Positions 46,542-62,450 are shown, counted from the stretch's first letter. The stretch is DNA of 64,000 bases from Spartobacteria bacterium (GCA_021324395.1 JAJPJG010000032.1:124001-188000); one strand, 5' to 3'. The notes: a model not told the origin generated them from the sequence alone. Made by a program: numbers and translations.

Positions 46542-46682
46542 CGAGAGCGAGACGCTCCGGGAGAAACCGCTACCGCAGTGGTTGCAGCAAGTTCCCGCGC
46601 GATGCTGAAAGGAAAAAATGGAGTCGGGCGGCAGATTCGTTATCTTTTCTGGGACGTGGCTGCTGGCAGCGACGTCGCATCG

Positions 46683-49600
46683 ATGAGCGAACCGACCATT
46701 CTCGAAAAAATCGGCCAGGGCATTCGGCGGTTGACGCCGCTGGGATACCGGCTGCAGAGCACCACGCGCAAAATGGCGCGCCGCGCGATGCGCAAGCCGC
46801 GCACGGTCGCGGAAGGGCCGAATCTTTTGCCGCTGCTCATCCAGGTGCTCGCGGCGTTTTCGAAAATCGATGGCGTAGTGCTCGAGGATGAAATCGATTC
46901 GTCGCTCGGTTTCCTGCGTTACGATTATCCGGAGGCGGTTTACTCCGAGCTGCGCAAACTTTTCCGGCAGGCGCTGAATGAGCAGCACGACTTGATGGCG
47001 ATGGGGCAGAAGCTTTCGACGCAACTGACCGACGACCGCAAAATCATGCTCGGTGTGCAACTTTACGACTTGATTTCAAAGGCCGAGCTGAACCACGAGC
47101 AGATCACAAATTTCTACGCGTTCATGTCGCAACTCGGCATGGCTGCACAGGCGATCGACATCGTGTATCAACTCAACGCCGCCGAGACCGCCGATCCCGC
47201 GATTTTCCAAAAAGGAGCATCGCCGCTTGAATCGCTCTGCTTCGGACCGGATGGGTCGGCGGACGTGACGCTGAAGGACCTGGCGCCCGATGAGCGGCTG
47301 CTCGCGTTTCGTTACCAGGATTTGATCCTGCTGAAGAACCAGACTAAGCGGTCGATAGTCGTGCGCGGCAGGCCGCTGGCGTCGAATGAATTTTGCCGCG
47401 TCTACTCCGGCCAGCGGATCGTGCTCGGCGAGCAGGTGCTGACTTACCAGGACCTCGTTTATTATTTTAACGCGAAGAAAAACGTCGCGGTGGCGCACGT
47501 TTATCTCAGCGTGAACAAGGATGACGAGGTCACCCTGGAAAAATCGCGCAGCCGCGACAGCGCGCTCGATGTGCAGTTCGGGCTGAGAGTGCAGGTGAAA
47601 GCGCTCAAGACGGTCGATGCCGTGCTCAATGGCGTGAGGTTGAAAGCGGGCGCTTATGTCGAGGGCACGCTCGAGGACAAAATCATTTTTCACGATGACA
47701 GCGAGCTGCTGTTGATCGATCTGCGCCGGCGCGCGCGGGCGATGGGCGGACGCTTTCAACTCAAGGCGCACAAATCCGAATACCTCGTCTCGAACAATCC
47801 CGGCCTGCTCGAGGAGGACGACATTTTGCTCTCACCGGGAACCGGAGGCGAAGTGCTGCTGAAAATCCAGTGCGATTACGAAAACAAAGTCGGCCATCTC
47901 GACGTGATGCAGGCCGACCGGCCGATTCTCGTCGGAGAGATGCCGGTGAGAAATTCGGCGCCGCTGGCCGATGGCGACACGATTCGCATCGATACCGGCC
48001 AGGTGCTGCGCTGCAATTTCTCCGAGCGCATCATCGAGGAGGAACGCAACATCATCAGCACGCTCGAAGTGCGCGATCTCACGCATCGTTTTCGCGAGGG
48101 GGAAACGGCGCTCGACGGCATTTCGTTCTCCATCATGCGCGGCGAAATGGTGTGCGTGATGGGCGCCAGCGGCTCTGGAAAAAGCACGCTGATGCGTGTG
48201 CTCGCCGGCCAGCTCCAGCCGCAGCACGGCGAGGTTTTGCTCAACAGCCAGTCGCTTTACGCGAACCTCGACGCGCTCAAAGGCTACATCAGCTACATCC
48301 CGCAGGAGGATGCGTTCGACGAGCTTTTGACGATTGAGGAAAATCTCGATTTCGCGGCGGCGATCCGCGCGCCGCATTTGTCGAGCCGCGATCGCGCGCG
48401 GCGCATCGACGGCAAGCTGATCGAGCTCGGCCTAACCGAACGGCGCGACAGCGTGGTCGGCAGTCCATTGAAAAAAACGCTGAGCGGCGGCGAACGCAAA
48501 CGTTTAAACATCGGTTTGGATATGATCGGCGGCGCCGACGTATTTCTTTTCGACGAGCCAACGAGCGGTCTCTCGTCAAAGGACGCCGAACACGTCATCG
48601 AGATCATCCGTTCGATGGCGCACAACAAAATCGTCCTCGTCACGATTCACCAGCCCGCGTCGAAGCTTTTCCAGATGTTTAGCAAAGCGGTGCTGCTCGA
48701 CAAAGGCGGGAAGCTCGTTTTTTACGGCACGCCGCACGACATGCTTTCGTATTTCGCGACGGCGGAGCACGAGCAGCATTTCGGCACCGAGTTGGGCGGC
48801 TGCCCCGCGTGCGGCACAACGCGACCGGAATTCATTTTCGACGTGCTCGAGACGCCGCTGCGCGATTTGAGCGGCGACATCATCTTCGAGGAAAATTCGC
48901 AGGGCCAGCTCGTGCCGGCGCGGCGTTTCTCGCCCGATTACTGGCGCGACAAATACGAATCGTTCCGGCTGCTGCAGGACATGCGGCAGGTCGCGGTGAA
49001 AAAGCACGAGGTCATACCAATTCCGCCTACGCCGATGCGCAAGCGTGAGCCGTTCCGCTGGCGCGACGAGTGGATGCAACTCCGCATTTTGATGCAGCGC
49101 GCGTTCATCTCGAAAATGCGCAACCGCGCAAACCTGCTCACGACGATTGTGGAGGCGCCTGTGCTCGCCGCGCTCATCGGGGCGGTGCTGCGCTACTCCG
49201 ATTCCGGCACCTATGATTTCGCGTCGGCTTATCACATTCCGACGTATCTTTTTTTAAGCCTCGTTGTCGCAATGTTCCTCGGCCTCACCAACAGCGCCGA
49301 CGACATCATCCGCGACCGCGCAGTGCTGCAGCGCGAGCGCAATCTCAACGTCCGGCTGCCGTATTACATCTTTGCAAAATCGCTCACACTCGCGCTCTTC
49401 GCCGCGATCCAGTGCGCGCTCTTCGTGCTCATCGGCAATGCCATTCTCGAAGTGCGCGGCCTTTTCTTTCCGCACTTCTTTTTCAATTTCATCACCGCGC
49501 TCGGCGGCGTCGCTGTCGGCCTGCTGATCTCCTCGCTCGTCGCCGATGGCAAGACCGCTGCAAACATCGTCCCGCTTATTTTGATCCCGAACATCATCCT

Positions 49601-50273
49601 CGGCGGCGCGCTGATTAAATACGAGGACATGAACCGCGACCTTGATCTCATCTACAAAATGCAGCGCTTTTTCTCCACGCATCCGGGCGCTGAAACGGGC
49701 AAGCGCGAGAGCGATTTGCAGGTGCCGATTTTGTGCGAGTTTATGCCGATGCGCTGGAGCTACGAAGCGCTCGTCGTCGCGCAGGCGAAGCTCAATCCGC
49801 TCACGATGCGACAGGAAAAACTTCAAGCGGAAATCGATGACCTCGCCGCGGACGAACAACGCACGCCGCAGGAAACCGGCCGGCTCGACGATTTAAAAGA
49901 CGCGCTCGCGCTCCTCTCCGGCCTTGAAGCGATGACCGCCGACGAGGTCGACAAGCGCCTGCACAAAGTGGACAAAGTCATTGCGGGAAAACCGCTCGAC
50001 CCGAGCGATCTTCGTTCGCACGGTCGCGGCTTCACGGCTGAGCGCCTTTTCGTAAACCAAAAAATCACCGACCTTGTTTCCAAGGCCGAAACAGAGCAGG
50101 CAGACTACCGCCGCTCAAAAAACATCAACGTCTTTTTCGGCCCGGAAAAACACCTTGGCAAATTCGTCTGCAGCGTCCTTTCCTTTAACGCCTTTGTCCT
50201 CGTCGTCTTCATCGCCGGCGCGCTCGGTCTCCTCCATGTCAGCTTGAAGCGGCAACTCCGCACAAGGGCGTAA
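46683..50273 (+). CDS. ABCG-type ABC transporter with TerB-like and FHA-like N-terminal regions
   Basis: 1196 residues from the ATG at 46683 (MSEPTILEKIG). Order: TerB-like helical domain near 45-155 (LPLLIQVLAAFSKIDGVVLE, DDRKIMLGVQLYDLI); a beta-rich region of about 330 residues with an FHA-like end near 425-465 (RPILVGEMPVRNSAPLADGD); ABC ATPase with Walker A GASGSGKST near 494, LSGGERKRLNIG near 599, and FLFDEPTSGLSSKD near 621. A zinc-ribbon-like CPACG sits near 706. Seven or so membrane helices follow from about residue 815 (ABC-2 permease), with a Lys/Asp-rich coiled insert near 1040-1150. ATPase-then-permease order is that of eukaryotic ABCG. The substrate is unknown. Confidence 0.88.
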   Translation: MSEPTILEKIGQGIRRLTPLGYRLQSTTRKMARRAMRKPRTVAEGPNLLPLLIQVLAAFSKIDGVVLEDEIDSSLGFLRYDYPEAVYSELRKLFRQALNEQHDLMAMGQKLSTQLTDDRKIMLGVQLYDLISKAELNHEQITNFYAFMSQLGMAAQAIDIVYQLNAAETADPAIFQKGASPLESLCFGPDGSADVTLKDLAPDERLLAFRYQDLILLKNQTKRSIVVRGRPLASNEFCRVYSGQRIVLGEQVLTYQDLVYYFNAKKNVAVAHVYLSVNKDDEVTLEKSRSRDSALDVQFGLRVQVKALKTVDAVLNGVRLKAGAYVEGTLEDKIIFHDDSELLLIDLRRRARAMGGRFQLKAHKSEYLVSNNPGLLEEDDILLSPGTGGEVLLKIQCDYENKVGHLDVMQADRPILVGEMPVRNSAPLADGDTIRIDTGQVLRCNFSERIIEEERNIISTLEVRDLTHRFREGETALDGISFSIMRGEMVCVMGASGSGKSTLMRVLAGQLQPQHGEVLLNSQSLYANLDALKGYISYIPQEDAFDELLTIEENLDFAAAIRAPHLSSRDRARRIDGKLIELGLTERRDSVVGSPLKKTLSGGERKRLNIGLDMIGGADVFLFDEPTSGLSSKDAEHVIEIIRSMAHNKIVLVTIHQPASKLFQMFSKAVLLDKGGKLVFYGTPHDMLSYFATAEHEQHFGTELGGCPACGTTRPEFIFDVLETPLRDLSGDIIFEENSQGQLVPARRFSPDYWRDKYESFRLLQDMRQVAVKKHEVIPIPPTPMRKREPFRWRDEWMQLRILMQRAFISKMRNRANLLTTIVEAPVLAALIGAVLRYSDSGTYDFASAYHIPTYLFLSLVVAMFLGLTNSADDIIRDRAVLQRERNLNVRLPYYIFAKSLTLALFAAIQCALFVLIGNAILEVRGLFFPHFFFNFITALGGVAVGLLISSLVADGKTAANIVPLILIPNIILGGALIKYEDMNRDLDLIYKMQRFFSTHPGAETGKRESDLQVPILCEFMPMRWSYEALVVAQAKLNPLTMRQEKLQAEIDDLAADEQRTPQETGRLDDLKDALALLSGLEAMTADEVDKRLHKVDKVIAGKPLDPSDLRSHGRGFTAERLFVNQKITDLVSKAETEQADYRRSKNINVFFGPEKHLGKFVCSVLSFNAFVLVVFIAGALGLLHVSLKRQLRTRA

Positions 50274-50329
50274 AGTAACACAAAAGAATAAGGATTGTTG
50301 TCGGACAAAATTTGGTTAGGATGTTGCAA

Positions 50330-50794
50330 ATGCGCGCTGAACCTTTTGGCCCGCTCGTGGTGTTTACACTCGCGAACGAGAAATGGGCATTGCCCGCTTC
50401 CGTCGTGCAACGCGCGGTTCGCGCCGTGGAAATCACGCCTTGTCCCGATGCGCCCGATGTCGTGCTCGGTGTCATCAACGTGCACGGACGCATTATTCCG
50501 GTTTTTGATTTGCGCCGGCGCTTTGGTTTGCCGCTCCGCGAACTCTCGATCGACGATCACATCATTATCGCAAAGGCGGAAACGCGCAGCGTGGCAATCC
50601 TGGTCGATGCAGTGTGCGGAATGATGCAGCCGGACGAATCCGCGGTTCTTACAAAGACGGAACTTCCGCCGGAGCTCACGACCTTTGATGGCATCTTAAA
50701 GCTAGGCCGCGAGATCGTCCTAATCTATGACCTCGACAAGTTTCTATCTCTCGAAGAGGAGCAGCTTCTCGCAAAGCTGGAAAGTAGCCGATGA
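50330..50794 (+). CDS. CheW-like adaptor (WspB-like position)
   Basis: 154 residues. An AGGA 8 nt upstream favours the ATG at 50330 over the one at 50321. CheW fold: LVVFTLANEKWALPASVVQR, GVINVHGRIIPVFDLRRRFGLP near 50-71, DHIIIAKAETRSVAILVDAV near 79-98. It ends SLEEEQLLAKLESSR. CheW proteins link receptors to CheA. It is the first gene of the chemosensory operon, 57 bp after the ABC transporter stop; its stop overlaps cheR as ATGA. Confidence 0.9.
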   Translation: MRAEPFGPLVVFTLANEKWALPASVVQRAVRAVEITPCPDAPDVVLGVINVHGRIIPVFDLRRRFGLPLRELSIDDHIIIAKAETRSVAILVDAVCGMMQPDESAVLTKTELPPELTTFDGILKLGREIVLIYDLDKFLSLEEEQLLAKLESSR

Positions 50795-52146
50795 CTATCC
50801 AAATTCCCGGTCACCTTTGGCAGAGACTTGGCGAATTGATCGCCGCTCAGACCGGCTTGCATTTTTCCAGTGACCGCCTCGATGACCTGAAGCGTGGCGT
50901 GGAATCCGCCGGACGGGAGCTGGGGTTAAGCCGGCTGGCAGAAGCGATCGAAGCTTTTACTCAAGAACCGCTCGACCAGGATAAGCTCAAGGTTCTGGCA
51001 AAGCATCTCACGATAGGTGAGACCTACTTCTTTCGTGATCCGAAGGTCTTCGAAACATTGGAGACGAAGATTCTTCCGCCGTTGATTCACCAACGCCGGC
51101 AAAATGAGCGGCGTCTTAGAATTTGGAGTGCGGGCTGTTGCTCGGGCGAAGAACCTTATTCCATCGCAATTCTGCTGCACAAGCTGTTGCCGGATATCGC
51201 CAGGTGGAACATCACGATTCTCGCAACGGACATCAACACTCGCTTTCTGCAAAAAGCGGAAGCGGGAGTTTTCTCGAAATGGTCTTTTCGCGGCCCAATT
51301 AGCGAAGACCTAAAGAAGGCTTATTTCAAAGCCATAGATGAAAACCGATTCGAGTTGCTGCAAGCTTACAAGTCATTAGTTACCTTCGAATTTCTAAACC
51401 TTGGAGAGGATAGCTATCCTTCGCTGCTCACCAACACCAATGCAATGGACTTAATCCTTTGCCGTAATGTGCTGATGTATTTCTCGCCAACTCAAGCGGC
51501 AAAGGTAGTGAAGAAGCTTCAGCGCTCATTGCTCGAAGGCGGATGGCTGGTGACAGGAACTGCCGAAACCGGCTCGCTCTTTGAGCCATTGCTGGCGGTG
51601 AACTATCCCGGCGTAGCAATTTTCCAGAAGGTCACCGAGCCAATACGTGAACAAAAACCTGTCTCGAAGCGCATCCAGGCGAAGCCAATTTCGTTTGCAC
51701 CTCAGCCAACAAAAGCGGCTATGGTGCCGCGGCCCAACGCGGATGAGTTAATCAAAGCTGCGCGGGCAAACGCGAATGAAGGACACTTTGCAGCCGCCCT
51801 GGAGCTTTGTGACAAAGCATTGAAGCTTGATAAGCTGAATGCTGGCGCTCATTACCTAAAAGGCTCGATTTTACAGGAACAGAATCAGCTCGACGATGCA
51901 GTAGCTTCGCTGCGGCGGGTGCTCTATCTTGATCGCGAATTTGTGCTCGCCTACTTCACGCTCGGCATGATCATGCAGCAAAAAGGCAACATGCGCGAGC
52001 AGGCCAAGCATTTCCAAAACGCATTACTTTTGCTGCAAAAATACACTCCCAACGAGGTGATCCCGGGCTCGGGCATGACTGCCGGACGGCTCGCCGATGT
52101 CATCAAGTCAACCATCCATGTTCGTGAAGTGAGTGAGACGAAATGA
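50791..52146 (+). CDS. CheR methyltransferase with C-terminal TPR repeats (WspC-like)
   Basis: 451 residues. CheR core: LAKHLTIGETYFFRDPKVFE near 68-87, RIWSAGCCSGEEPYSIAILL near 109-128 (SAM site), ILATDINTRFLQKAEAGVF near 141-159, and DLILCRNVLMYFSPTQAAKV near 218-237. After a Pro/Lys linker, residues 315-430 hold TPR units (DELIKAARANANEGHFAAAL, NAGAHYLKGSILQEQNQLDDA). CheR-TPR methyltransferases are typical of Wsp-type systems and methylate receptor glutamates. Stop and next start overlap (ATGA). Confidence 0.93.
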   Translation: MTIQIPGHLWQRLGELIAAQTGLHFSSDRLDDLKRGVESAGRELGLSRLAEAIEAFTQEPLDQDKLKVLAKHLTIGETYFFRDPKVFETLETKILPPLIHQRRQNERRLRIWSAGCCSGEEPYSIAILLHKLLPDIARWNITILATDINTRFLQKAEAGVFSKWSFRGPISEDLKKAYFKAIDENRFELLQAYKSLVTFEFLNLGEDSYPSLLTNTNAMDLILCRNVLMYFSPTQAAKVVKKLQRSLLEGGWLVTGTAETGSLFEPLLAVNYPGVAIFQKVTEPIREQKPVSKRIQAKPISFAPQPTKAAMVPRPNADELIKAARANANEGHFAAALELCDKALKLDKLNAGAHYLKGSILQEQNQLDDAVASLRRVLYLDREFVLAYFTLGMIMQQKGNMREQAKHFQNALLLLQKYTPNEVIPGSGMTAGRLADVIKSTIHVREVSETK

Positions 52147-52757
52147 GTAAATGGAATGAACTTCACCAACGGCTAAGCATGGTGCGCGAGACGATCGACC
52201 GTGGCTTTTCTCCAACCAAAGAAGAGCAACAAGGAATCCTGCGCAAACGCGCGGAGTTTTTGGCAAAAGAACCCGTGCAGGAAACAGCTACTGACGGAAT
52301 GGAAGTCACTGTCTTCACACTCGCAAATGAAACCTATGGAATCGAAACTAAATTCGTGATCGAAGTAATAGCCTTCGATCAACTCACCATGGTTCCCGGC
52401 GCGCCAGGTTTTATCGCAGGAATAGTAAACCTGCGCGGAACTATTCTTACGCTCATCGATATCAAGAGGTTCTTTGGTCTGCCGGAGAATGGAATCGACG
52501 ATCTTCATAAGATCGTCCTCATTCGTGCAAAAGAAACACAAGCCGGCCTCCTCGCCGATAACTTGATTGGAATCAGTCATGTCGCAGTAAACGATTTGCA
52601 AACAAGCTTACCAACATTAACCGGCCGCCGCGCGGACTACTTAAAAGGAGTAAGAGCTGACGGCCTGATCGTGCTTGATGTCGAGAAGTTGCTTGCAGAC
52701 GAGCGGCTATACGTCAACCAAAAGCCGGAAGAACACATGACAGAAGCAAACTTATGA
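52143..52757 (+). CDS. CheW-like adaptor with N-terminal extension (WspD-like)
   Basis: 204 residues. An N-terminal helical region of 50 residues (KWNELHQRLSMVRETIDRGF, PTKEEQQGILRKRAEFLAKE) precedes a CheW domain: EVTVFTLANETYGIETKFVI, GIVNLRGTILTLIDIKRFFGLP near 97-118, HKIVLIRAKETQAGLLADNL. The N-terminal extension followed by CheW matches WspD-type adaptors. Base composition is less GC-rich than neighbouring genes. Its stop overlaps the first receptor gene (ATGA). Confidence 0.9.
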   Translation: MSKWNELHQRLSMVRETIDRGFSPTKEEQQGILRKRAEFLAKEPVQETATDGMEVTVFTLANETYGIETKFVIEVIAFDQLTMVPGAPGFIAGIVNLRGTILTLIDIKRFFGLPENGIDDLHKIVLIRAKETQAGLLADNLIGISHVAVNDLQTSLPTLTGRRADYLKGVRADGLIVLDVEKLLADERLYVNQKPEEHMTEANL

Positions 52758-54481
52758 AATGGAATGTCGGAGCTAAAATCGGTGCGGGATTTCTCCTAGC
52801 TATTCTGGTTCTTCTGCTCATCGGGCTTCTCACTTACCGTAGCATAAGCGCGTTAGTGCAAGCTTCCGAGTGGAGGCGCCACAGCTATCAGGTGCTGCAG
52901 CATGTCGAGCGTGTGCTCTCTTTGCTGAAAGATGCTGAGACAGGGCAGCGCGGCTTTATCATTACTGGCGAAGAACGGTATCTGGATCCATACCAAGTGG
53001 CATTGCGCGAAATGGATGGTGAGATAGCTACGCTACGGAATTTGACGAGCGATAACCCGGGCCAGCAGCAACGACTCGACTCATTGCAAAAGCTGGAGCA
53101 GGGCAAGCTTGCAGAGCTGCAGGAGACAATTTCTCTGCGTAAGGAAAAGGGCTTTGAAGATGCACGAATGGTTGTTGCATCGGATCGCGGGAAGCAGCTC
53201 ATGGATCAGGCGCGCGATGTGATCAGTGCGATAAATCAGGAGGAAGAGCGGTTGTTGGATGAACGCACGAAAGAAGCTGCGACGAACACACAGCGGACTT
53301 ATGCGACCATCATTTATGGCATTATCTTTGCCGTAGTTGCGATGTTCGGCACCGGGTGGCTGATAACAACAAATATTGCAGCACCTTTGAAGCAGGTCAC
53401 TGACATAGCGAACCGCATTGCAGTTGGTGAATTGGGCGGTGAAGTAGGCGATATGGAACGTCTGGATGAGGTGGGCCTATTGCATAACGCTTTTGCGCGA
53501 ATGAATAAGTCTTTAAAGCTGCTGGCCGGGCAAGCTCAACAGATCGCAGCGGGTGATTTAAAAGCACAGCTTAGCGTGCAATCGGACAAAGACATCCTTG
53601 GGAACGCTTTCGCGACAATGACACAGAACCTGCGCAGCTTGATGCAGGACGTTTTGGAAGCGGTAAACGTGCTTGTTTCCTCCGCAAGCGAGATCATGGC
53701 CGCTGCGACTCAACTAGCTTCGGGAGCTACTGAGACAGCGACAGGGGTAAGCCAGACTACGGCTACGGTCGAAGAAGTGAAGCAAACCTCGCAGCTATCG
53801 AGTGAAAAGGGAAGGCAGGTCGCCGATAATGCGCAAAATGCAGCAAAGGTTGCGCAGGAAGGCAAGGAATCGGTGGAAGAGACCATTGCTGGAATGAGCC
53901 GAATCCGCAATCAGATGGAGACAATTGCCGATAGCATTGTAAGACTTAGCGAGCAGAGCCAGGCAATTGGCGCTATCATCGCTACAGTTGATGATCTGGC
54001 GGCGCAATCGAATCTCCTGGCAGTGAATGCCTCGATTGAAGCGGCCAAGGCGGGTGAGCATGGCAAAGGATTCGGTGTCGTTGCGCAGGAGGTAAAGAAC
54101 CTCGCAGATCAATCCAAGCAAGCAACGATGCAGGTTCGCACGATTTTGAGCGATGTCCAGAAAGCAACTGCGAGCGCTGTTTTGGCTACCGAACAAGGCA
54201 GCAAGACAGTCGAAGCCGGAGTGGTGCAAGCAAATTCGGCCGGCCACGCGATTCGAGCCTTGAATGACACAGTTACGGAAGCTGCACAGGCTGCTACGCA
54301 AATCGCGACAATGAGCCAGGAACAGTTTGTCGGCATGGATCAAATCGCGCTCGCAATGGAAAATATCAAGGTGGCAAGCACGCAAACCGTCGCCAGCACA
54401 AAACAGGCGGAAACCGCGGCGCATCATATTCATGAACTTGGGCAAAAACTAAAGGACCTGATAAACCGCTTCAAAGTATAA
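52754..54481 (+). CDS. Methyl-accepting chemotaxis protein with CHASE3-type sensor
   Basis: 575 residues. TM1 near 7-29, then a periplasmic CHASE3-like helical domain with the marker LLKDAETGQRGFIITGEERY near 56-75, and TM2 near 188-210. HAMP and a second HAMP-like region (residues 211-300) are followed by the signalling hairpin with tip VDDLAAQSNLLAVNASIEAA and GKGFGVVAQEVKNLADQSKQ near 410-460. It ends LKDLINRFKV without a CheR-binding pentapeptide. CHASE3 domains sense unknown extracytoplasmic cues. Stop and the next start overlap as TAATG. Confidence 0.93.
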   Translation: MKWNVGAKIGAGFLLAILVLLLIGLLTYRSISALVQASEWRRHSYQVLQHVERVLSLLKDAETGQRGFIITGEERYLDPYQVALREMDGEIATLRNLTSDNPGQQQRLDSLQKLEQGKLAELQETISLRKEKGFEDARMVVASDRGKQLMDQARDVISAINQEEERLLDERTKEAATNTQRTYATIIYGIIFAVVAMFGTGWLITTNIAAPLKQVTDIANRIAVGELGGEVGDMERLDEVGLLHNAFARMNKSLKLLAGQAQQIAAGDLKAQLSVQSDKDILGNAFATMTQNLRSLMQDVLEAVNVLVSSASEIMAAATQLASGATETATGVSQTTATVEEVKQTSQLSSEKGRQVADNAQNAAKVAQEGKESVEETIAGMSRIRNQMETIADSIVRLSEQSQAIGAIIATVDDLAAQSNLLAVNASIEAAKAGEHGKGFGVVAQEVKNLADQSKQATMQVRTILSDVQKATASAVLATEQGSKTVEAGVVQANSAGHAIRALNDTVTEAAQAATQIATMSQEQFVGMDQIALAMENIKVASTQTVASTKQAETAAHHIHELGQKLKDLINRFKV

Positions 54482-56118
54482 TGATGAATTCGTTCTTAAA
54501 CCTGCGCACAGGAGTGAAGCTTTTCATTAGCTTCGGGCTTATGGCACTCATCACGGGAGCGGTCATTGTGACAGCTTATTTTGGGGTGCTCGAACTGGAG
54601 CGGTCGCAAAAAGCGTTATTCGAGCGTGATTTCAAGATGGCGGTCAATCTGCTCAATATCCGTGCGCTCGAGAATCGTCAGCGTGTTCGTATCCTGGAAC
54701 TATTGGCGTTTATCGAGAAGGAAGATGCGCCCGTTTTACTGCAGGATATCAAAAGCAATGCGAAAGAGATCGACGACTCACTTGAGCAATGCCTCGAGAT
54801 TGGAAAAGACGATGCCAGGATGGCCGGGCGAATGGAGGAACTAAGATCGACTATCGTTGATTATCGTAAGACTAGGGACCAGCAAATTGTTCTTATCAAT
54901 AGCGGAAAGGTCGATGAGGCAAAGCAGCTAAGCAATTCCGTGCAGGAGGAGCGTTACGAACGAATCGCTTCTCTAGCTAATGACCTAGGCAAAGAAGCTG
55001 TGGGACGTGCGCAGAAGCGAATACTGGATAGCGCGGACAGGGTGCATCAGCTAATCAGCTTTCTTGGCGTGGTTGCCGTCATCGCGGTAGTCATCACGAT
55101 GCTGCTCGGCTACGTGCTAAATCGCATGATTGCGCGACCGCTAAAAGCGATCTCGGGAGTTGCCGAACGAATGGCTGCTGGCGATTTTTCCACAAAGATC
55201 ACTGTGAATCATCGCGGTGATGAAGTAGGTGTGCTCGAGACGAACTTTCGCCGGATGAATGAAAATCTTGGCAGCATCATACAGGAAATCATCGAGGCGG
55301 TAAATGTGCTTGCGTCATCGGCGAGCGAAATCCTTGCCGCAACAACGCAGCTAGCTTCCGGCGCTACCGAGACAGCGACGGCAATCACCCAAACCACGAC
55401 GACAGTTGAGGAAGTGAAGCAAACTTCAAAGGTGTCGAGTGAAAAGGGCAAAGTCATTTCCGATACCGCTCAACAAGCTTCCCAGGTAGCTCAAACTGGA
55501 CGGAGATCTGTGGACGAAACCATCGATGGCATGGGACGGATTCGTCAGCAAATGGAATCGATTGCGGATAGCATAGTAAGACTTAGCGAGCAGAGTCAGG
55601 CTATCGGCGAAATCATAACGACTGTCGATGACCTGGCGGCGCAGTCAAATCTACTAGCTGTGAATGCATCGATTGAAGCAGCCAAAGCAGGCGACCACGG
55701 CAAAGGCTTTGCGGTGGTCGCGCAAGAGGTAAAGAACCTCGCCGAGCAATCCAAGCAAGCGACAATGCAAGTGCGCGGCATTCTAAGTGAGATTCAAAAG
55801 GCAACCAGCAGCGCCGTCTTAACTACCGAGCAAGGCAGCAAGGCTGTTGAAGCGGGAGTAACTCAATCAACCGCCGCGGGCGATACGATCCGCATCCTGG
55901 CCGATAACATCTCGCAAGCTGCGCAGGCGGCTACGCAGATTGCCGCAACCAATCAGGAGCAATTCGCAGGCATGGATCAGGTAGTGCTAGCGATGGAAAA
56001 TATCAAAGTGGCAAGCACGCAGACTGTCGCGAGCACAAAGCAAGCGGAGACTGCGGCGCGCAGCCTGCATGACTTGGGGCAAAAACTGAAAGAGCTCGTG
56101 CAGCGGTTCAAGGTCTAG
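54481..56118 (+). CDS. Methyl-accepting chemotaxis protein with four-helix-bundle sensor
   Basis: 545 residues. TM1 near 13-34, a 4HB-type periplasmic region (LERSQKALFERDFKMAVNLL, VDEAKQLSNSVQEERYERIA), TM2 near 191-212, HAMP, and the signalling domain. From about residue 270 on it is nearly identical to the preceding receptor (DDLAAQSNLLAVNASIEAAK, ENIKVASTQTVASTKQAETA), so the two arose by duplication with sensor exchange. It ends LKELVQRFKV. ATG at 54481 or 54484. The cheA start is 2 bp after its stop. Confidence 0.93.
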   Translation: MMNSFLNLRTGVKLFISFGLMALITGAVIVTAYFGVLELERSQKALFERDFKMAVNLLNIRALENRQRVRILELLAFIEKEDAPVLLQDIKSNAKEIDDSLEQCLEIGKDDARMAGRMEELRSTIVDYRKTRDQQIVLINSGKVDEAKQLSNSVQEERYERIASLANDLGKEAVGRAQKRILDSADRVHQLISFLGVVAVIAVVITMLLGYVLNRMIARPLKAISGVAERMAAGDFSTKITVNHRGDEVGVLETNFRRMNENLGSIIQEIIEAVNVLASSASEILAATTQLASGATETATAITQTTTTVEEVKQTSKVSSEKGKVISDTAQQASQVAQTGRRSVDETIDGMGRIRQQMESIADSIVRLSEQSQAIGEIITTVDDLAAQSNLLAVNASIEAAKAGDHGKGFAVVAQEVKNLAEQSKQATMQVRGILSEIQKATSSAVLTTEQGSKAVEAGVTQSTAAGDTIRILADNISQAAQAATQIAATNQEQFAGMDQVVLAMENIKVASTQTVASTKQAETAARSLHDLGQKLKELVQRFKV

Positions 56119-56120
56119 CG

Positions 56121-58340
56121 ATGGCAAACGACGAAGAGTTTCAACAAAGGCTGCTCGAAGCTTTTCAGATCGAGGCTCAAGAGCATTTGCAAATGCTATC
56201 GGCCGGCCTGCTGGAACTCGAAAGCAGCCCTGCCGAGGAGCGACGGCATGAGATTGTGGAAACCATTTTTCGCGAAGCGCATAGCTTGAAAGGTGCTGCC
56301 CGTTCGGTGAATCGCACGGATATCGAGTCGCTATGCCAGGCGATGGAGAGTGTCTTTTCAAAGTGGAAAACAAATGGCGTTACCGCGACCGCGGAGACAT
56401 TCGACCGGCTTAGCGATGCAGTCGATTTTTTGCAAAGGCTGCTCGGCGCAACTCCGCCGGATGCGCGGGAAGTCGCTGCGATGACCAAGGAAATTCGCGC
56501 TTTGGAGACAATGGTCGAGCCGTTGCCGGAATCGATGACCGAACCAGTCGATCCTGGTTTCAGTGCGCACCCGGTAGCGCACGTGACTGAAGATACGATC
56601 CGCATTGCGACAGCAAAGATGGATGCGCTTCTGCTGCAAGCCGAGGAAATGATCGCCGTGAAAAACACCGCGACGCAACGCGCGTCGGAACTGCACGAGG
56701 TCGCCGCGATGATGGAAACGTGGCGCAAGGAATGGGCGAAGATGAATGCGGAGATGCAGAGGGTTCGCGCGCCCGCGCAGAACAGCAGTGCGCCGACGGA
56801 GCGTGTCTTCGACTTTCTCGAATGGAACCAGAGCTATCTTCGCTCGCTCGAAAACCGATTGCTGACTTTGCGCAAATCGGCGGAGGAAGATCAGCGGCGG
56901 CTCGGCGGAATGGTTGACGATTTGCTCGATGAAGCGAAGCGGCTCGTGATGCTGCCGTTTGCGACGCTGCTCGACATTTTTCCGAAGCCGGTGCGCGATC
57001 TGGCGCGTGACCAGGAGAAGCAGGTGGAGCTGATTTTGCGCGGCCGGCGCATCGAGATCGACAAACGCATTCTCGAGCAGATGAAAGATCCGCTGATGCA
57101 TCTCGTGCGAAATGCGATCGACCACGGGATCGAAAAACCTGAGATGCGCATGGCGCAGCGAAAGCCGGAGCGCGGCATGATCACAATGGCTGTTGCGCAG
57201 ATCGATGCGAGTAAAGTCGAGATCGTGATCGGCGACGACGGCGCAGGCATCGATGTCGCCGAAGTGAAAGCGGCTGCGGTTAAATCCGGCGCTATTTCGA
57301 CTGAAGAAGCCGCGCAGCGTAGCGACCGCGAAGCGCTCGCGCTGATTTTTCAAAGCGGCGTTTCTACGAGCAAAATGGTCACCGAACTTTCCGGACGCGG
57401 ACTCGGCATGGCGATCGTGCGCGAGAAGGTCGAGAAGCTCGGCGGACATATTGAGATCGAGACTGAGCGCGGGCGTGGCACGGCTTTTCGCATCGTGCTG
57501 CCGGTCACGCTTTCGACTTTCAAAGGGCTGCTCGTGCGCGCGGGCGGACAGCCGTTCGTGCTGCCGATCGCGAACGTCGATCGCGTGCTGCGGATCGCGC
57601 GCGATGAAATTAAAACGGTCGAGAACAAGGAGACGATTTCGTGGGATGGCCGCGTGCTCTCGCTCACGCGGCTCAATGTGGTGCTAGGCTTGCCGCGTCG
57701 TGAAAAAAGCGAGGACTCGAAGTTTGTGCAAATGGTTGTGCTGAACGCAGGCGAAACGCGCATCGCGTTTGTCGTCGACGAGGTGCTCAACGAGCAGGAG
57801 GTGCTTGTAAAACCTCTGCAAAAGCCGCTCGTTCACGTGCGGAATGTTGCCGCCGCGACCGTGCTCGGTTCCGGCCAGGTCGTGCTGATTTTAAATGTGC
57901 CGGAATTGATCGAGTCCGCGACAACCGGCACTGCGAATGCGGTTTCCGCAATTGTGGCGGAGCCGGTCGAATCGAAAACGAAATCGCTGCTCGTCGTCGA
58001 TGACTCCGTTACTTCGCGCATGCTGTTAAAAAACATTCTTGAAACGGCCGGCTACGATGTGAAGACCGCAATCGACGGCGTGGATGCGATGACGCATTTG
58101 CGCACGCAGCATTTCGACCTCATTGTTTCCGACGTGCAGATGCCGCGCATGGACGGTTTTGATTTAACAGCAAAAATCCGCACGGACAAACGGCTCGGCG
58201 ATTTGCCTGTCGTGCTCGTGACTGCGCTCGAATCGCGCGAGCACCGCGAACGGGGCATTGACGTCGGGGCAAACGCCTACATCGTGAAAAGCAGCTTCGA
58301 TCAAAGCAACCTGCTCGAGGTCGTCGAGCACCTGATATGA
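56121..58340 (+). CDS. CheA-type hybrid histidine kinase with C-terminal receiver (WspE-like)
   Basis: 739 residues. HPt domain with phospho-His in REAHSLKGAARS (His54), a linker without an obvious P2, a helical dimerisation region, and the HATPase with MHLVRNAIDHGIEKPE near 327-342, GDDGAGIDVAEV, GLGMAIVREKVEKLGGHI. A CheW-like domain follows near 470-600. A receiver ends it (LLVVDDSVTSRMLLKNILE, phospho-Asp in IVSDVQMPRMDG near 668, Lys in IVKSS). CheA-REC fusions are typical of Wsp and related non-flagellar systems. Overlaps cheB as ATGA. Confidence 0.94.
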   Translation: MANDEEFQQRLLEAFQIEAQEHLQMLSAGLLELESSPAEERRHEIVETIFREAHSLKGAARSVNRTDIESLCQAMESVFSKWKTNGVTATAETFDRLSDAVDFLQRLLGATPPDAREVAAMTKEIRALETMVEPLPESMTEPVDPGFSAHPVAHVTEDTIRIATAKMDALLLQAEEMIAVKNTATQRASELHEVAAMMETWRKEWAKMNAEMQRVRAPAQNSSAPTERVFDFLEWNQSYLRSLENRLLTLRKSAEEDQRRLGGMVDDLLDEAKRLVMLPFATLLDIFPKPVRDLARDQEKQVELILRGRRIEIDKRILEQMKDPLMHLVRNAIDHGIEKPEMRMAQRKPERGMITMAVAQIDASKVEIVIGDDGAGIDVAEVKAAAVKSGAISTEEAAQRSDREALALIFQSGVSTSKMVTELSGRGLGMAIVREKVEKLGGHIEIETERGRGTAFRIVLPVTLSTFKGLLVRAGGQPFVLPIANVDRVLRIARDEIKTVENKETISWDGRVLSLTRLNVVLGLPRREKSEDSKFVQMVVLNAGETRIAFVVDEVLNEQEVLVKPLQKPLVHVRNVAAATVLGSGQVVLILNVPELIESATTGTANAVSAIVAEPVESKTKSLLVVDDSVTSRMLLKNILETAGYDVKTAIDGVDAMTHLRTQHFDLIVSDVQMPRMDGFDLTAKIRTDKRLGDLPVVLVTALESREHRERGIDVGANAYIVKSSFDQSNLLEVVEHLI

Positions 58341-59395
58341 CCCAACGAAAAATCCGCGTGCTCATCGTGGAAGACTCGGCCGTTTCGCGCGAGTTGCTGA
58401 CGCACATTTTACAAAGCGATCCCGAAATCGAAGTCGCAGGCATGGCGCGCGACGGCGAGGAAGCAATCGCCGAGACGCTCCGATTAAAGCCGGATGTGAT
58501 CACGATGGACATCCACATGCCGAAGCTGAACGGCTTCGACACCACGCGGCGCATCATGGAAATGCAACCGGTGCCGATCATCATCGTAAGCTCGAGCGCC
58601 GATCCGAATGATGTGCAAAAAGCATTTCGCGTGATGGACGCGGGCGCCGTCGCAATTCTCGAAACACCGCGCGGCACGGCACATCCGGAGCATAACTGGA
58701 TGGCGGCGAAATTGGTTCGCACCGTGAAGCTGATGTCCGAAATCAAGGTCGTGAAGCGCTGGCGCAGAACACCGCCGCGCGCCACGAAACCGCCGCAATC
58801 GGTGCAACTGCTTTCCGCAACGCGCAGCTTCGAGCTTGTTGCGATCGGCGCATCGACCGGCGGGCCTGCCGTATTGCATTCGATTTTGGGTTCGATTCAA
58901 AAATTTCCGCCGGTCCCGATTTTAATTGTGCAACACATCGCGAGCGGTTTCGTGCAAGGTTTTGCCGACTGGCTGGCGCACAGCACCGGTCTGCCGGTTC
59001 ATCTCGCAAATCACGGCGACAAACCGCAAGCCGGGCATGTTTACGTGGCACCGGATGGCCACCACATGGTCATGGATAATACCGGCCGTATCGCGTTGCG
59101 CGCCGATCCGCCGGAGAATGGCTTGCGTCCGGCAGTCTCGCCATTTTTTAACTCCGTCGCCCAAGTTTTTGGCGATCGAGCGATTGGTATTTTGCTCACC
59201 GGCATGGGCCGCGACGGTGCTGATGGACTCAAAGCAATGCGCGATCGCGGCGCGGTTACCATCGCGCAGGACCAGCAGAGTTCCGTCGTTTACGGAATGC
59301 CCGGCGCAGCGGTAAAACTCGAAGCCGCCGCCTACGTGCTGCCACCGGCGCAAATCACAGCAACACTCGATTCATTGCTGCACCCGGCCAAATGA
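58337..59395 (+). CDS. cheB: CheB protein-glutamate methylesterase (WspF-like)
   Basis: 352 residues. Receiver domain with VLIVEDSAVSRELLTHIL and the phospho-Asp in VITMDIHMPKLNG near 56. The catalytic domain has the Ser in AIGASTGGPAVLH near 173, the His in LIVQHIASGF near 199, and the Asp in TGMGRDGADGLKAM near 292. It demethylates the receptors when phosphorylated by CheA. The stop overlaps the next gene as ATGA. It pairs with the CheR-TPR in this operon. Confidence 0.95.
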   Translation: MTQRKIRVLIVEDSAVSRELLTHILQSDPEIEVAGMARDGEEAIAETLRLKPDVITMDIHMPKLNGFDTTRRIMEMQPVPIIIVSSSADPNDVQKAFRVMDAGAVAILETPRGTAHPEHNWMAAKLVRTVKLMSEIKVVKRWRRTPPRATKPPQSVQLLSATRSFELVAIGASTGGPAVLHSILGSIQKFPPVPILIVQHIASGFVQGFADWLAHSTGLPVHLANHGDKPQAGHVYVAPDGHHMVMDNTGRIALRADPPENGLRPAVSPFFNSVAQVFGDRAIGILLTGMGRDGADGLKAMRDRGAVTIAQDQQSSVVYGMPGAAVKLEAAAYVLPPAQITATLDSLLHPAK

Positions 59396-60702
59396 CGAAA
59401 CAAAATGACATCGAGATTCTGATCGTCGAGGACAGCCTCACGCAGTCCTTGCGTTTGCAGCATTTGCTTGAAAAAAACGGGTTCCGCGTCCGCACCGCGC
59501 GTGACGGCCGGCGCGCGCTCGAATCGCTGGAGGTGCATCGGCCGACGCTCGTCATCGCCGACATCCAAATGCCGGAGATGGACGGTTATCAATTGTGTCG
59601 CGCTGTGAAAAGCACACCCGCGCTGCGCGATGTTCCGGTGATGCTGCTCACTTCGCTTTCCGCGCCGCAGGACATCATTCGCGGACTCGAATCCGGTGCG
59701 GACAATTTCGTCGTGAAGCCTTACGAGGAGGACTTCCTGCTATCGCGCATCGAGACGGTGCTCGCGAGCCAGCAGTTCCGCAAAACAGGCGGCGCGGAAG
59801 CGGAGCTGCCGATTTTGTTTGCGGGAAAAAAATACACCATTAGTTCCGACCGCCGGCAGATCCTGAATCTGCTGCTCTCGACTTACGAAACGGCTGTCAA
59901 AACCAACCTAGACCTCATCCAGGCGCACGAGGAACTCAAATCGGCGCAGGCGCAGTTGATCGAGGCTGAGAAAGCGTTGTCACTGGGTCGGCTCGCGGCG
60001 GGCGTTGCGCACGAGGTGCGCAATCCGCTCGCCATTTTGGAAATGGGCGTCTCGTTCCTATCCGAGCGTTCGCTCGGCGAGGAGGAGCGCGGAGTGTTAA
60101 ACGAAATGTGTGAAGCCGTTCGCCGCGCGAACATCGTCATCCACGGCTTGATGGATGTGTCGTCGCCGAACGAGCTCGGCATGCGCGACAGCGACATCAA
60201 TCGCGTGATCGAAAAAGCGCTGCTGCTTTTCGCCGATCAACTCGACCAGCGAAAAATCAAAGTCCGCCGCGAGTTGCAGCCCGACTTGTGCGCGTGCCGG
60301 ATCGACGAAAGCAAGATGGAACAGGTGTTCATCAATCTGTTCGCCAACGCGCGCGACGCGATGCCGAATGGCGGCGAGTTGCTGATCCACACGCAAACGC
60401 GCGTGCTCGATAAAAGCGACGTCACCTACGACGCCGGCGACCGTTCCGGCGCGCGCTTGCGCGAAGGCGACCACGGCGTGCTCGTCGAGATCAGCGACAG
60501 CGGCGCGGGGATTGCCGGTGACAATTTAACCAAAGTGTTCGATCCGTTTTTCAGCACGAAACCGACCGGCAAAGGCATGGGACTCGGCCTCACCGTATCG
60601 AAAAAAATGATCGAGCTGCACGGCGGAAAACTCGCGCTGCGCAACCGTCCCGAAGGCGGCATCACCGCGACTGTCCTGCTCCGCTGCATCGGCCAGGCCT
60701 GA
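59392..60702 (+). CDS. REC-histidine kinase hybrid (output component)
   Basis: 436 residues. N-terminal receiver (ILIVEDSLTQSLRLQHLLE, phospho-Asp57 in VIADIQMPEMDG, ending FVVKPYEEDFLLSRIE), then a conserved linker of about 65 residues (FAGKKYTISSDRRQILNLLL). HisKA has LGRLAAGVAHEVRNPLAILE with His near 207, and HATPase_c has NLFANARDAMPNGGE, SDSGAGIAG, and FDPFFSTKPTGKGMGLGL. No periplasmic sensor. It sits where the wsp operon would have its output, so CheA probably phosphorylates its receiver and gates the kinase. Confidence 0.92.
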   Translation: MTKQNDIEILIVEDSLTQSLRLQHLLEKNGFRVRTARDGRRALESLEVHRPTLVIADIQMPEMDGYQLCRAVKSTPALRDVPVMLLTSLSAPQDIIRGLESGADNFVVKPYEEDFLLSRIETVLASQQFRKTGGAEAELPILFAGKKYTISSDRRQILNLLLSTYETAVKTNLDLIQAHEELKSAQAQLIEAEKALSLGRLAAGVAHEVRNPLAILEMGVSFLSERSLGEEERGVLNEMCEAVRRANIVIHGLMDVSSPNELGMRDSDINRVIEKALLLFADQLDQRKIKVRRELQPDLCACRIDESKMEQVFINLFANARDAMPNGGELLIHTQTRVLDKSDVTYDAGDRSGARLREGDHGVLVEISDSGAGIAGDNLTKVFDPFFSTKPTGKGMGLGLTVSKKMIELHGGKLALRNRPEGGITATVLLRCIGQA

Positions 60703-60707
60703 AAGAC

Positions 60708-62084
60708 ATGAGCCTCGACGAGTTCCCGCCTGCGCAACTCGTAGACATTTTGATCGTCGAGGACAGCCTCACGCAGGCGATGAAATTGCAGCACGTGCTC
60801 GAGCAGCACGGTCATCGCGTGACCGTCACCCGCAACGGCGAGGAGGCGCTCGCGACCTTGCGCGCGATGCCGCCGCAAATGGTGATCACCGATATCAACA
60901 TGCCGAAAATGGACGGCTACGAGCTTTGCCGCCGCATCAAGGACGATCCGCAGACGACAGCGCTTCCGGTGATTTTGCTCACATCGCTTTCCGATCCGAA
61001 GGACATCCTGAATGGGCTCGAATGCGGCGCGGACAATTTCATCGTTAAACCTTACGACGAGGACTTCCTGCTCTCGCGCATCCAATACGTCATCGCGAAC
61101 TCCGAGCTGCGACGCAACGGCGGGGAAGAACGCACGGAGGTTTTTTTCGCGGGTCACAAATATCGCTTCAGCTCCGCGCGTATTCACTCGCTCGACCTGT
61201 TGCTCTCCACTTACGAAACCGCCGTGTTGAAAAATCTCGAGCTGAGCAAGGCGAAGGAATTACTCGAGCGGCGGGCGACGGAGCTGCGCGAAAAAAACGA
61301 GCAAATGGAAGCCGACCTCATCATGGCGCGTGAGCTGCAACGCGCATTTCTCCCGCAGGAATCCGTCTTCCCTCACAATGCCGCACCGGAAAAAAGTGCG
61401 CTGCAATTTTGCCACCGGTATCGCACGACCACGGAACTCGGCGGCGACTTTTTCGACATTCTCACGATTTCCAACGAACAGGTTGGCGTGTTCATTTGCG
61501 ACGTGATGGGACACGGCGTTCGTGCGGCGCTCGTGACCGCGCTCATCCGCGGATTGATCGAGGAACTGATGCCGTTCGCAGGCGATCCCGGCGAGTTCCT
61601 CTCGCAGATGAATGAGAGCCTCTGCGCGATTTTAAAACAAACGACAACGCCACTTTTTGCCTCCGCATTTTATGCAGTGATCGACGTCGCGGACGGCGTG
61701 ATCCGTTACGCGAACGCCGGCCATCCGAGCCCGTTCCATCTGCAACGCACCGCAAACAAACTCTCGCGCCTCGAACCGCAAGACGGGCGACACGGGCCGG
61801 CGCTCGGCGTTTTTGAAAAAACAATCTACCCGGAAGCCGACCGGCGGCTCGCGGCTCGCGACGGGCTGATCCTTTTCACCGATGGATTCTACGAAGTCGA
61901 AGGCAAAAACGGCGTGTTTTACGATCAGCAACAACTGTCGCAGCAAATCGAGCGGCACATGCAGTTAGACACCGGTTTGCTCTTCGACAAGGTCGTCGAG
62001 AAGATCCGCGCGTTCTCGGCCACGCAAAATTTCGAGGACGATCTTTGTCTTGTCGGAGTTGAAGTTGCGCGCACAGGCGGGTAG
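60708..62084 (+). CDS. REC-PP2C (SpoIIE/RsbU-type) serine phosphatase (output component)
   Basis: 458 residues. Receiver (DILIVEDSLTQAMKLQHVLE, phospho-Asp62 in VITDINMPKMDG), the same REC-linker as the preceding kinase (FAGHKYRFSSARIHSLDLLL), a coiled coil, then a PP2C-type phosphatase. It has LQRAFLPQE near 213, TTELGGDFFDIL near 243 with the metal-binding Asp, ICDVMGHGVRAALVTALIRG near 266-285, YANAGHPSPF and LFTDGFYEVEG, and finally DDLCLVGVEV. Related proteins dephosphorylate anti-anti-sigma factors. No anti-sigma or STAS gene is in the window. Confidence 0.93.
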   Translation: MSLDEFPPAQLVDILIVEDSLTQAMKLQHVLEQHGHRVTVTRNGEEALATLRAMPPQMVITDINMPKMDGYELCRRIKDDPQTTALPVILLTSLSDPKDILNGLECGADNFIVKPYDEDFLLSRIQYVIANSELRRNGGEERTEVFFAGHKYRFSSARIHSLDLLLSTYETAVLKNLELSKAKELLERRATELREKNEQMEADLIMARELQRAFLPQESVFPHNAAPEKSALQFCHRYRTTTELGGDFFDILTISNEQVGVFICDVMGHGVRAALVTALIRGLIEELMPFAGDPGEFLSQMNESLCAILKQTTTPLFASAFYAVIDVADGVIRYANAGHPSPFHLQRTANKLSRLEPQDGRHGPALGVFEKTIYPEADRRLAARDGLILFTDGFYEVEGKNGVFYDQQQLSQQIERHMQLDTGLLFDKVVEKIRAFSATQNFEDDLCLVGVEVARTGG

Positions 62085-62096
62085 GTTTTCCGCTCG

Positions 62097-62450
62097 ATGT
62101 CGAAACGACGCATCCTCATCGTGGACGACGAGGTCGAAGCCCCGCGATTGCTCAAGCGGCTGCTGGAACTGAAGCGCCCGTATGAAATCGTGCTCGAGCA
62201 TGACTCGACAAGGGCGCTCGATGTCGCGCTCACGTTTCGCCCGGAGGTGATCCTGCTCGACGTCATCATGCCCGATCTCGACGGCGGCGACGTCGCGATG
62301 CAAATCCGCCGCGCCGACCCGGTGCGCGACACACCGATCATTTTCGTCAGCGCCATCGCGCAACCGATCGCCGGTTACCCGTTCCTCAACAAACCGACGC
62401 CTGTGGAAAAGATCATCGAGTGCATCGAGGAAAATCTACCTGCGGTGTAG
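62097..62450 (+). CDS. Single-domain response regulator
   Basis: 117 residues: RRILIVDDEVEAPRLLKRLL, phospho-Asp55 in VILLDVIMPDLDG, Thr/Ser in IIFVSAIAQ, and Lys in FLNKPTPVEKIIECI. The sequence is otherwise CheY-like. It lies 12 bp after the phosphatase gene and closes the operon. It could be a phosphate sink, a CheY-type output, or a phosphorelay partner of the hybrid kinase. Confidence 0.9.
   Translation: MSKRRILIVDDEVEAPRLLKRLLELKRPYEIVLEHDSTRALDVALTFRPEVILLDVIMPDLDGGDVAMQIRRADPVRDTPIIFVSAIAQPIAGYPFLNKPTPVEKIIECIEENLPAV

Follow-up and report, generated by a model that had tools for sequence, protein, structure and literature searches.

A Wsp-like chemosensory operon of a Spartobacteria bacterium with a histidine kinase and a PP2C phosphatase as outputs, and its probable link to partner switching

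What does a chemosensory array act on in a bacterium in whose assembled genome no flagellar motor and no diguanylate cyclase have been found? The question is posed by a ten-gene operon at 50312-62450 of a 64,000-nucleotide stretch of DNA from a Spartobacteria bacterium (G000:C15:124001-188000; this whole stretch is called the window below). The operon combines a chemosensory core, arranged as in the Pseudomonas wsp operon, with three output proteins that carry receiver (REC) domains, namely a histidine kinase (REC-HK), a phosphatase of the PP2C family (REC-PP2C) and a lone REC. We consider it probable, with the reservations given below, that the array regulates a protein-partner switch, in which CheA would phosphorylate the receivers of kinase and phosphatase in parallel and REC-PP2C would act on a STAS protein, while REC-HK and the lone REC would work in a manner analogous to CheS3 and CheY3 of Rhodospirillum centenum.

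The operon and its genome

The preliminary description of the window had recognised ten genes following the order wspBCDAEF, with WspR missing and a histidine kinase, a PP2C phosphatase and a lone REC present instead, and this is upheld by open reading frame prediction and domain searches. All ten reading frames lie on the + strand, and every domain assignment is above the Pfam cut-offs. Most junctions overlap, by 4 nt at CheW1/CheR, CheR/CheW2, CheW2/receptor 1, CheA/CheB and CheB/REC-HK and by 1 nt between the two receptors, while gaps of 2, 5 and 12 nt separate receptor 2 from CheA, REC-HK from REC-PP2C and REC-PP2C from the lone REC. With neighbouring genes overlapping by up to 4 nt and never more than 12 nt apart, the set very likely forms a single co-transcribed operon.

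The outputs follow CheB. REC-HK (59392-60702; PF00072, PF00512, PF02518) has the architecture REC-HisKA-HATPase, and a domain search of the protein detected no PAS or other sensor domain; its AHEVRNP motif and N, G1 and G2 boxes are intact. REC-PP2C (60708-62084; PF00072, PF07228 E=3e-41) is of the SpoIIE type and retains the metal-ligand motifs GGDFFD, CDVMGHG, FTDGF and EDDLCL. A degenerate phosphatase or kinase is thereby ruled out. The lone REC (62097-62450; PF00072) closes the operon, and the acceptor Asp is kept in each of its REC domains. Upstream lie the first CheW coupling protein (50312-50794; PF01584 E=5e-28), the start of which is uncertain (TTG at 50312, or ATG at 50321 or 50330), a CheR methyltransferase with C-terminal TPR repeats (50791-52146; PF01739 E=1e-48 plus TPR families) and the second CheW (52143-52757; PF01584 E=2e-29). 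These are followed by two chemoreceptors (methyl-accepting chemotaxis proteins, MCPs), of CHASE3-HAMP-MCPsignal (52754-54481; PF05227, PF00672, PF00015) and 4HB_MCP-HAMP-MCPsignal type (54481-56118; PF12729, PF00672, PF00015), by CheA with the domains Hpt-HATPase-CheW-REC (56121-58340; PF01627, PF02518, PF01584, PF00072) and by CheB, a REC-methylesterase (58337-59395; PF00072, PF01339 E=2e-61) that also exceeds the NCBIfam CheB cut-off. The acceptor His of CheA (AHSLKG), the Asp of its REC (SDVQMP) and the CheB active-site motif GASTGG are intact.

The host is a soil-type bacterium of the Verrucomicrobiota, probably of the family Chthoniobacteraceae, a placement based on the receivers of a genome of the same family (G406, L206), which are identical to those of the Chthoniobacteraceae-labelled record L042. 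Its genome measures 3.68 Mb in 58 contigs and is 91.5% complete. A genome-wide domain search found a total of three CheW domains and two receptors, all inside the operon, which is thus the sole chemosensory array found in this host; a second array as the true partner of the outputs is ruled out, there being no further CheW or MCP. The genome has no match to the flagellar FlhA family (FHIPEP), which rules out a flagellum as the partner of the array. It likewise has no GGDEF domain, although the same search was positive in eight of 14 control genomes; a cyclase hidden elsewhere is ruled out by this result, which suggests a host without synthesis of cyclic di-GMP (c-di-GMP). As far as the genome is assembled, the array therefore has no flagellar motor and no diguanylate cyclase to act on. 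The CheR fused to TPR repeats, the multidomain response regulators REC-HK and REC-PP2C and the lack of a flagellar marker are features of arrays with alternative cellular functions (ACF). On these grounds we class the array as a non-motility system of the ACF type that is built like Wsp. Its CheA has one Hpt domain and, in a tree of CheAs from the phylum, falls in one of the two Wsp-like clades, apart from the outgroup CheAs.

Receiver kinship and probable exchange of effectors

A search of its own genome with the REC-PP2C receiver gave 25 matches, one of them the query. The closest of the others is the receiver of the adjacent REC-HK (58% identity, 206 bits), followed by the REC of CheA from the same operon (33%, 74 bits), while the remainder score at most 72 bits. 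In a tree of 106 receivers, in which deep forks are weak as it comprises only 137 columns, both output receivers fall in one clade (support 98/80) of 19 members, all from Wsp-like clusters. Nine of these are linked to a histidine kinase, four to PP2C and two to GGDEF, the latter sitting in the WspR slot, and four lack a recognised effector. A second group of REC-PP2C receivers (L157, L158, L162, L165, L182, L183, L190, L196, L198) joins the REC-HK receivers of L166 and L179 (100/99). The simplest reading is that the receiver was retained while the effector was swapped, and that this happened more than once.

The distribution of such effectors was surveyed by a CheA-core search of 388 genomes of the phylum, 81 of which have CheA; 60 CheA regions were retrieved and annotated and, as only the better-scoring CheAs were retrieved, the cluster fractions hold for that sample. 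Thirty-two clusters qualify as Wsp-like (CheA with REC, together with CheR, CheW and CheB; L122 and L123 counted in). PP2C occurs in 14 (L122, L123, L144, L145, L148, L157, L158, L162, L165, L182, L183, L190, L196, L198), a histidine kinase in 11, both in three, GGDEF in four and no recognised effector in six. Ten of the REC-PP2C assignments were rechecked by Pfam and all gave REC plus SpoIIE, which rules out drift of the profile models, and the REC-GGDEF proteins of L146, L147, L152 and L155 were rechecked in the same way. If the one or two REC-PP2C genes of a genome were placed randomly among its few thousand genes, well under one cluster would be expected to carry one (a rough estimate), against 14 of 32 found. 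Chance adjacency is ruled out by this frequency among clusters sampled by their CheA, together with the conservation within the family described below.

In other Verrucomicrobiota (G277, G363) a WspR-like REC-GGDEF protein fills the WspR slot, and the preliminary description had spoken of a cyclase being replaced. This wording does not survive the CheA tree: PP2C is found in clusters of either Wsp-like clade, the supported branches require a minimum of three changes for a PP2C-only label and of three for HK plus PP2C, and GGDEF, HK and PP2C outputs interleave. A cyclase ancestor is therefore not shown.

STAS genes and the operon in relatives

Outside the operon, the genome encodes the remaining constituents of a partner switch: beside the SpoIIE-type PP2C with its metal-binding residues there are a STAS protein that keeps the D-S phosphosite and a kinase of the RsbW type. 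Genome searches for STAS matched three proteins, a SulP-like transporter and two proteins at C45 (37337-37879 and 17961-18266). One RsbW-like kinase was clearly recognised at C53 (25983-26345), and of the eight matches to SpoIIE the weakest fell below the cut-off. The STAS protein at C45:37337-37879 is 37-39% identical to STAS proteins encoded in the chemosensory clusters of two other genomes, G124 and G178, has the C-terminal extension common to these and keeps the D-S phosphosite region. In G178 (L123) the STAS gene lies between REC-PP2C and CheW; its product reaches the STAS_2 model alone, below the curated cut-off, and aligns well with the others. STAS directly follows REC-PP2C in G101 (L145), and in G124 (L144) it comes after REC-PP2C and an Hpt gene, while in G163 (L182) genes for STAS and for an RsbW-like protein come about 1-1.5 kb downstream. 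In two other chemosensory clusters (L171, L172) REC-PP2C likewise lies beside STAS. The stand-alone Hpt protein of G124 (L144 10366-10737), between REC-PP2C and STAS, suggests an HptB-like relay step.

The type of STAS protein encoded at C45:37337-37879 is present in 310 of the 388 genomes and, in the loci seen (L220-L239), is mostly followed directly by a GAF-PP2C gene; at the C45 locus of the present genome the two genes span 9338-9880 and 7892-9334 of L124. STAS and GAF-PP2C apparently constitute a phylum-wide core switch module, and it looks as if some genomes have placed an extra copy of the core STAS inside a chemosensory cluster. Mere presence of this STAS type was dropped as a test of co-occurrence, being uninformative when so many genomes have it, usually beside GAF-PP2C; only the extra copies inside chemosensory clusters (G178, G124) are informative. 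In chemosensory clusters that are not Wsp-like, REC-PP2C is also found fused to HATPase_c_2 (L154 11858-13408; L167 13696-15231, - strand; L170 5395-6993, - strand; L203 3785-5737, - strand). STAS adjoins this fusion in L154, L167 and L170, as confirmed by Pfam, and a switch of the HsbR type would be expected to have this architecture. The present genome encodes a second phosphatase with a receiver, a REC-PAS-PP2C protein at C36 (L127 6800-10657), amid REC and REC-HK-REC genes and away from any chemosensory gene, and comparable blocks are present in several genomes of the same family (L207-L214).

Across its full length REC-PP2C is 62-63% identical to its relatives in G416, a genome of the same family, and in Verrucomicrobium sp. 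BvORR034 (G218), and 43% identical to that in G178. The order CheB, REC-HK, REC-PP2C is common to two genera of the family: G416 has MCP-MCP-CheA-CheB-(REC-HK)-(REC-PP2C), and G394 has CheW-CheR/TPR-CheW-MCP-CheA-CheB-(REC-HK)-(REC-PP2C), the last gene being cut by contig ends. Three distant lineages hold the set in rearranged form, split over two divergent strands in G218, with REC-HK-REC and REC-PP2C ahead of CheW in G178, and with REC-HK-REC ahead and REC-PP2C behind in G124. A relative of the lone REC (35% identity) lies beside the cluster of Verrucomicrobium sp. BvORR034.

The genes flanking the operon show no such conservation. A large ABC transporter fusion on the same strand (46578-50273) stops 38 nt before the first CheW and could be co-transcribed with the operon; its position is not shared by the relatives examined, where the sole match is a weak one (29%) in G394 (L216), and the gene downstream of the operon has no match in the loci checked. 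Conserved flanking genes are thus ruled out.

Proposed mechanism, alternatives and known systems

In the mechanism that we propose, the receptors would regulate CheA through the two CheWs and be adapted by methylation through CheR-TPR and CheB, while the C-terminal REC of CheA is probably a phosphate sink. CheA would phosphorylate the two near-duplicate receivers of REC-HK and REC-PP2C in parallel, and precedents for such a transfer are those from WspE to WspR and from CheA3 to CheS3. Phosphorylation of its receiver would alter the activity of REC-PP2C, with activation expected from the precedents HsbR and RsbY, and the phosphatase would then dephosphorylate a Ser-phosphorylated STAS protein, for which C45:37337-37879 is the best candidate in this genome and which would thereupon change partner. 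In REC-HK, phosphorylation would alter autokinase activity and hence how far the lone REC, and perhaps other receivers, are phosphorylated, as in CheA3-CheS3-CheY3. We infer the direction of regulation and the final target, which may be a sigma factor or another protein; in Nostoc a STAS protein serves as output with no known sigma factor (PMC6495340), and an anti-sigma factor is therefore not to be assumed.

Partner switching as the output is suggested by the intact motifs, the conservation, the receiver kinship and the STAS genes in related clusters. A number of observations weigh against it. As the preliminary description had noted, no STAS, anti-sigma (RsbW-like) or flagellar gene lies within the 64-kb window, genome searches placing such genes elsewhere or finding none, and the operon itself therefore holds no STAS or RsbW gene. 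The partner-switching link proposed there gains from STAS genes beside REC-PP2C in G178, G124 and G101, but no STAS was detected near REC-PP2C of G416, G394, G218 or most clusters of the second receiver group, in a search of limited sensitivity near relatives' clusters, its seeds coming from one genome. The candidate at C45 shares an operon with another PP2C, of the GAF type, as do most loci of this type examined, and some seven further SpoIIE matches are rival candidates for acting on STAS. Backbone support in the receiver tree is moderate and its sampling limited. As for the operon, the co-occurrence called for earlier is found in G416 and G394 and, rearranged, in G218, G178 and G124, and relatives in which it is broken up and both kinase and phosphatase are gone were mostly not encountered; however, in G390, of the same family, the order is MCP-CheA-CheB-(REC-HK) with no PP2C recognised after the kinase, and the lone REC was not found in G416.

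The phosphatase might instead stand two steps below the array, if CheA acted on the receiver of REC-HK only and the kinase then phosphorylated both the lone REC and REC-PP2C. Such a relay in series has a parallel in R. centenum, where CheA3 acts on the CheS3 REC and CheY3 is phosphorylated solely by CheS3~P (PMC3868531), and it accords with the intact motifs of REC-HK and with its gene lying directly upstream of REC-PP2C. We nevertheless regard it as unlikely, since the two receivers are near-duplicates that group with the REC-GGDEF proteins of the WspR slot, suggesting the same phosphodonor, and since in many clusters REC-PP2C follows CheB and no HK gene was recognised in the stretch retrieved, so that an adjacent kinase is not needed. 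That the array works mainly through REC-HK and the lone REC, as in the Che3 system of R. centenum, with REC-PP2C acting on a Ser/Thr-phosphorylated protein other than STAS, would agree with the lack of STAS in the window and of any detected near the clusters of the closest relatives, and with eight SpoIIE matches against only three STAS matches in the genome. It appears distinctly improbable, as SpoIIE-family phosphatases of known substrate mostly act on STAS proteins (e.g. PMC5085249, PMC4574943) and STAS adjoins REC-PP2C in three related clusters and lies near it in a fourth. Control of surface motility or other taxis, for example through type IV pili, tuned by the phosphatase and the kinase, has the least to commend it and is very improbable. 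Motility is the classical role of arrays, and the Hmp chemotaxis-like system and the HmpU-W switch of Nostoc both act in hormogonium development and motility (PMC6495340), but the genome lacks the flagellar FlhA family (type IV pilus genes were not searched for), the CheA has one Hpt, and CheR-TPR with multidomain regulators marks ACF systems (PMC3447774).

Direct, parallel control of kinase and phosphatase thus remains the reading that we prefer, and parts of it are found in known systems. The Pseudomonas wspABCDEFR operon likewise unites two CheWs, CheR-TPR, receptor, CheA-REC and CheB, in an order (wspBCDAEF) that the present operon matches as BCDA(A)EF, and places its output REC protein after CheB; it differs in having WspR, whereas REC-HK, REC-PP2C and a lone REC form the output set here, the receptors are two and the genome has no GGDEF match. 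The ACF class with CheR-TPR shares the CheR-TPR cluster, the multidomain response regulators and the lack of a flagellum, and its 2012 catalogue already lists REC fused to HK (about 40%), to GGDEF and to a family-2C phosphatase (PMC3447774). The earlier claim of an undescribed output set was therefore too strong at the level of domains, although that census, as far as its available text goes, treats domains only and gives no joint HK plus PP2C set, common receiver or STAS link; nor was a description of the joint set, the common receiver or STAS genes in such clusters found in the open-access papers searched. CheA acting on a REC-HK with a lone REC is not new either. The R. centenum Che3 cluster likewise encodes a CheA ending in a REC, a lone REC and a REC-bearing histidine kinase; there, phosphorylation of the CheS3 receiver by CheA3 inhibits the kinase and so lowers CheY3~P. 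In the accessible part of that report (PMC3868531) no PP2C is described, and CheS3 is a hybrid kinase with a PAS domain discussed, unlike the kinase of the present operon with its one REC and no PAS.

Receiver control of a phosphatase acting on a STAS anti-anti-sigma factor is known from HptB-HsbR-HsbA of Pseudomonas aeruginosa, where the donor HptB is fed by orphan hybrid kinases, not CheA, and HsbR is also a kinase (PMC5085249). In RsbK-RsbM-RsbY of Bacillus cereus a sensor kinase tuned by a methyltransferase acts on the REC-PP2C protein RsbY, which dephosphorylates the STAS protein RsbV, but the kinase is a single hybrid kinase and the module has no array, CheA, CheW or CheB (PMC4574943). 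In Nostoc punctiforme a chemotaxis-like system (Hmp) and a STAS switch (HmpU-W) both regulate hormogonium development and motility, yet they are two separate gene sets, with no REC-PP2C in the che operon described in the accessible text (PMC6495340).

The outputs of non-motility arrays are mostly unknown beyond Wsp, with its c-di-GMP, and a few developmental systems. It seems to us about an even chance that arrays of the Verrucomicrobiota have repeatedly recruited PP2C/STAS switching as an output, by way of a CheA-dedicated receiver with interchangeable effectors (kinase, phosphatase, cyclase) under direct array control, and that they represent a lineage-wide class not previously characterised. 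The receiver tree offers a clean case of modular rewiring, in which the receiver is conserved and its effectors are exchanged, and the STAS genes that some relatives have next to the phosphatase point to a specific candidate substrate. Since only one array, and neither flagellum nor GGDEF, was found and one operon supplies both outputs, array output without motor or cyclase becomes directly testable in this bacterium.

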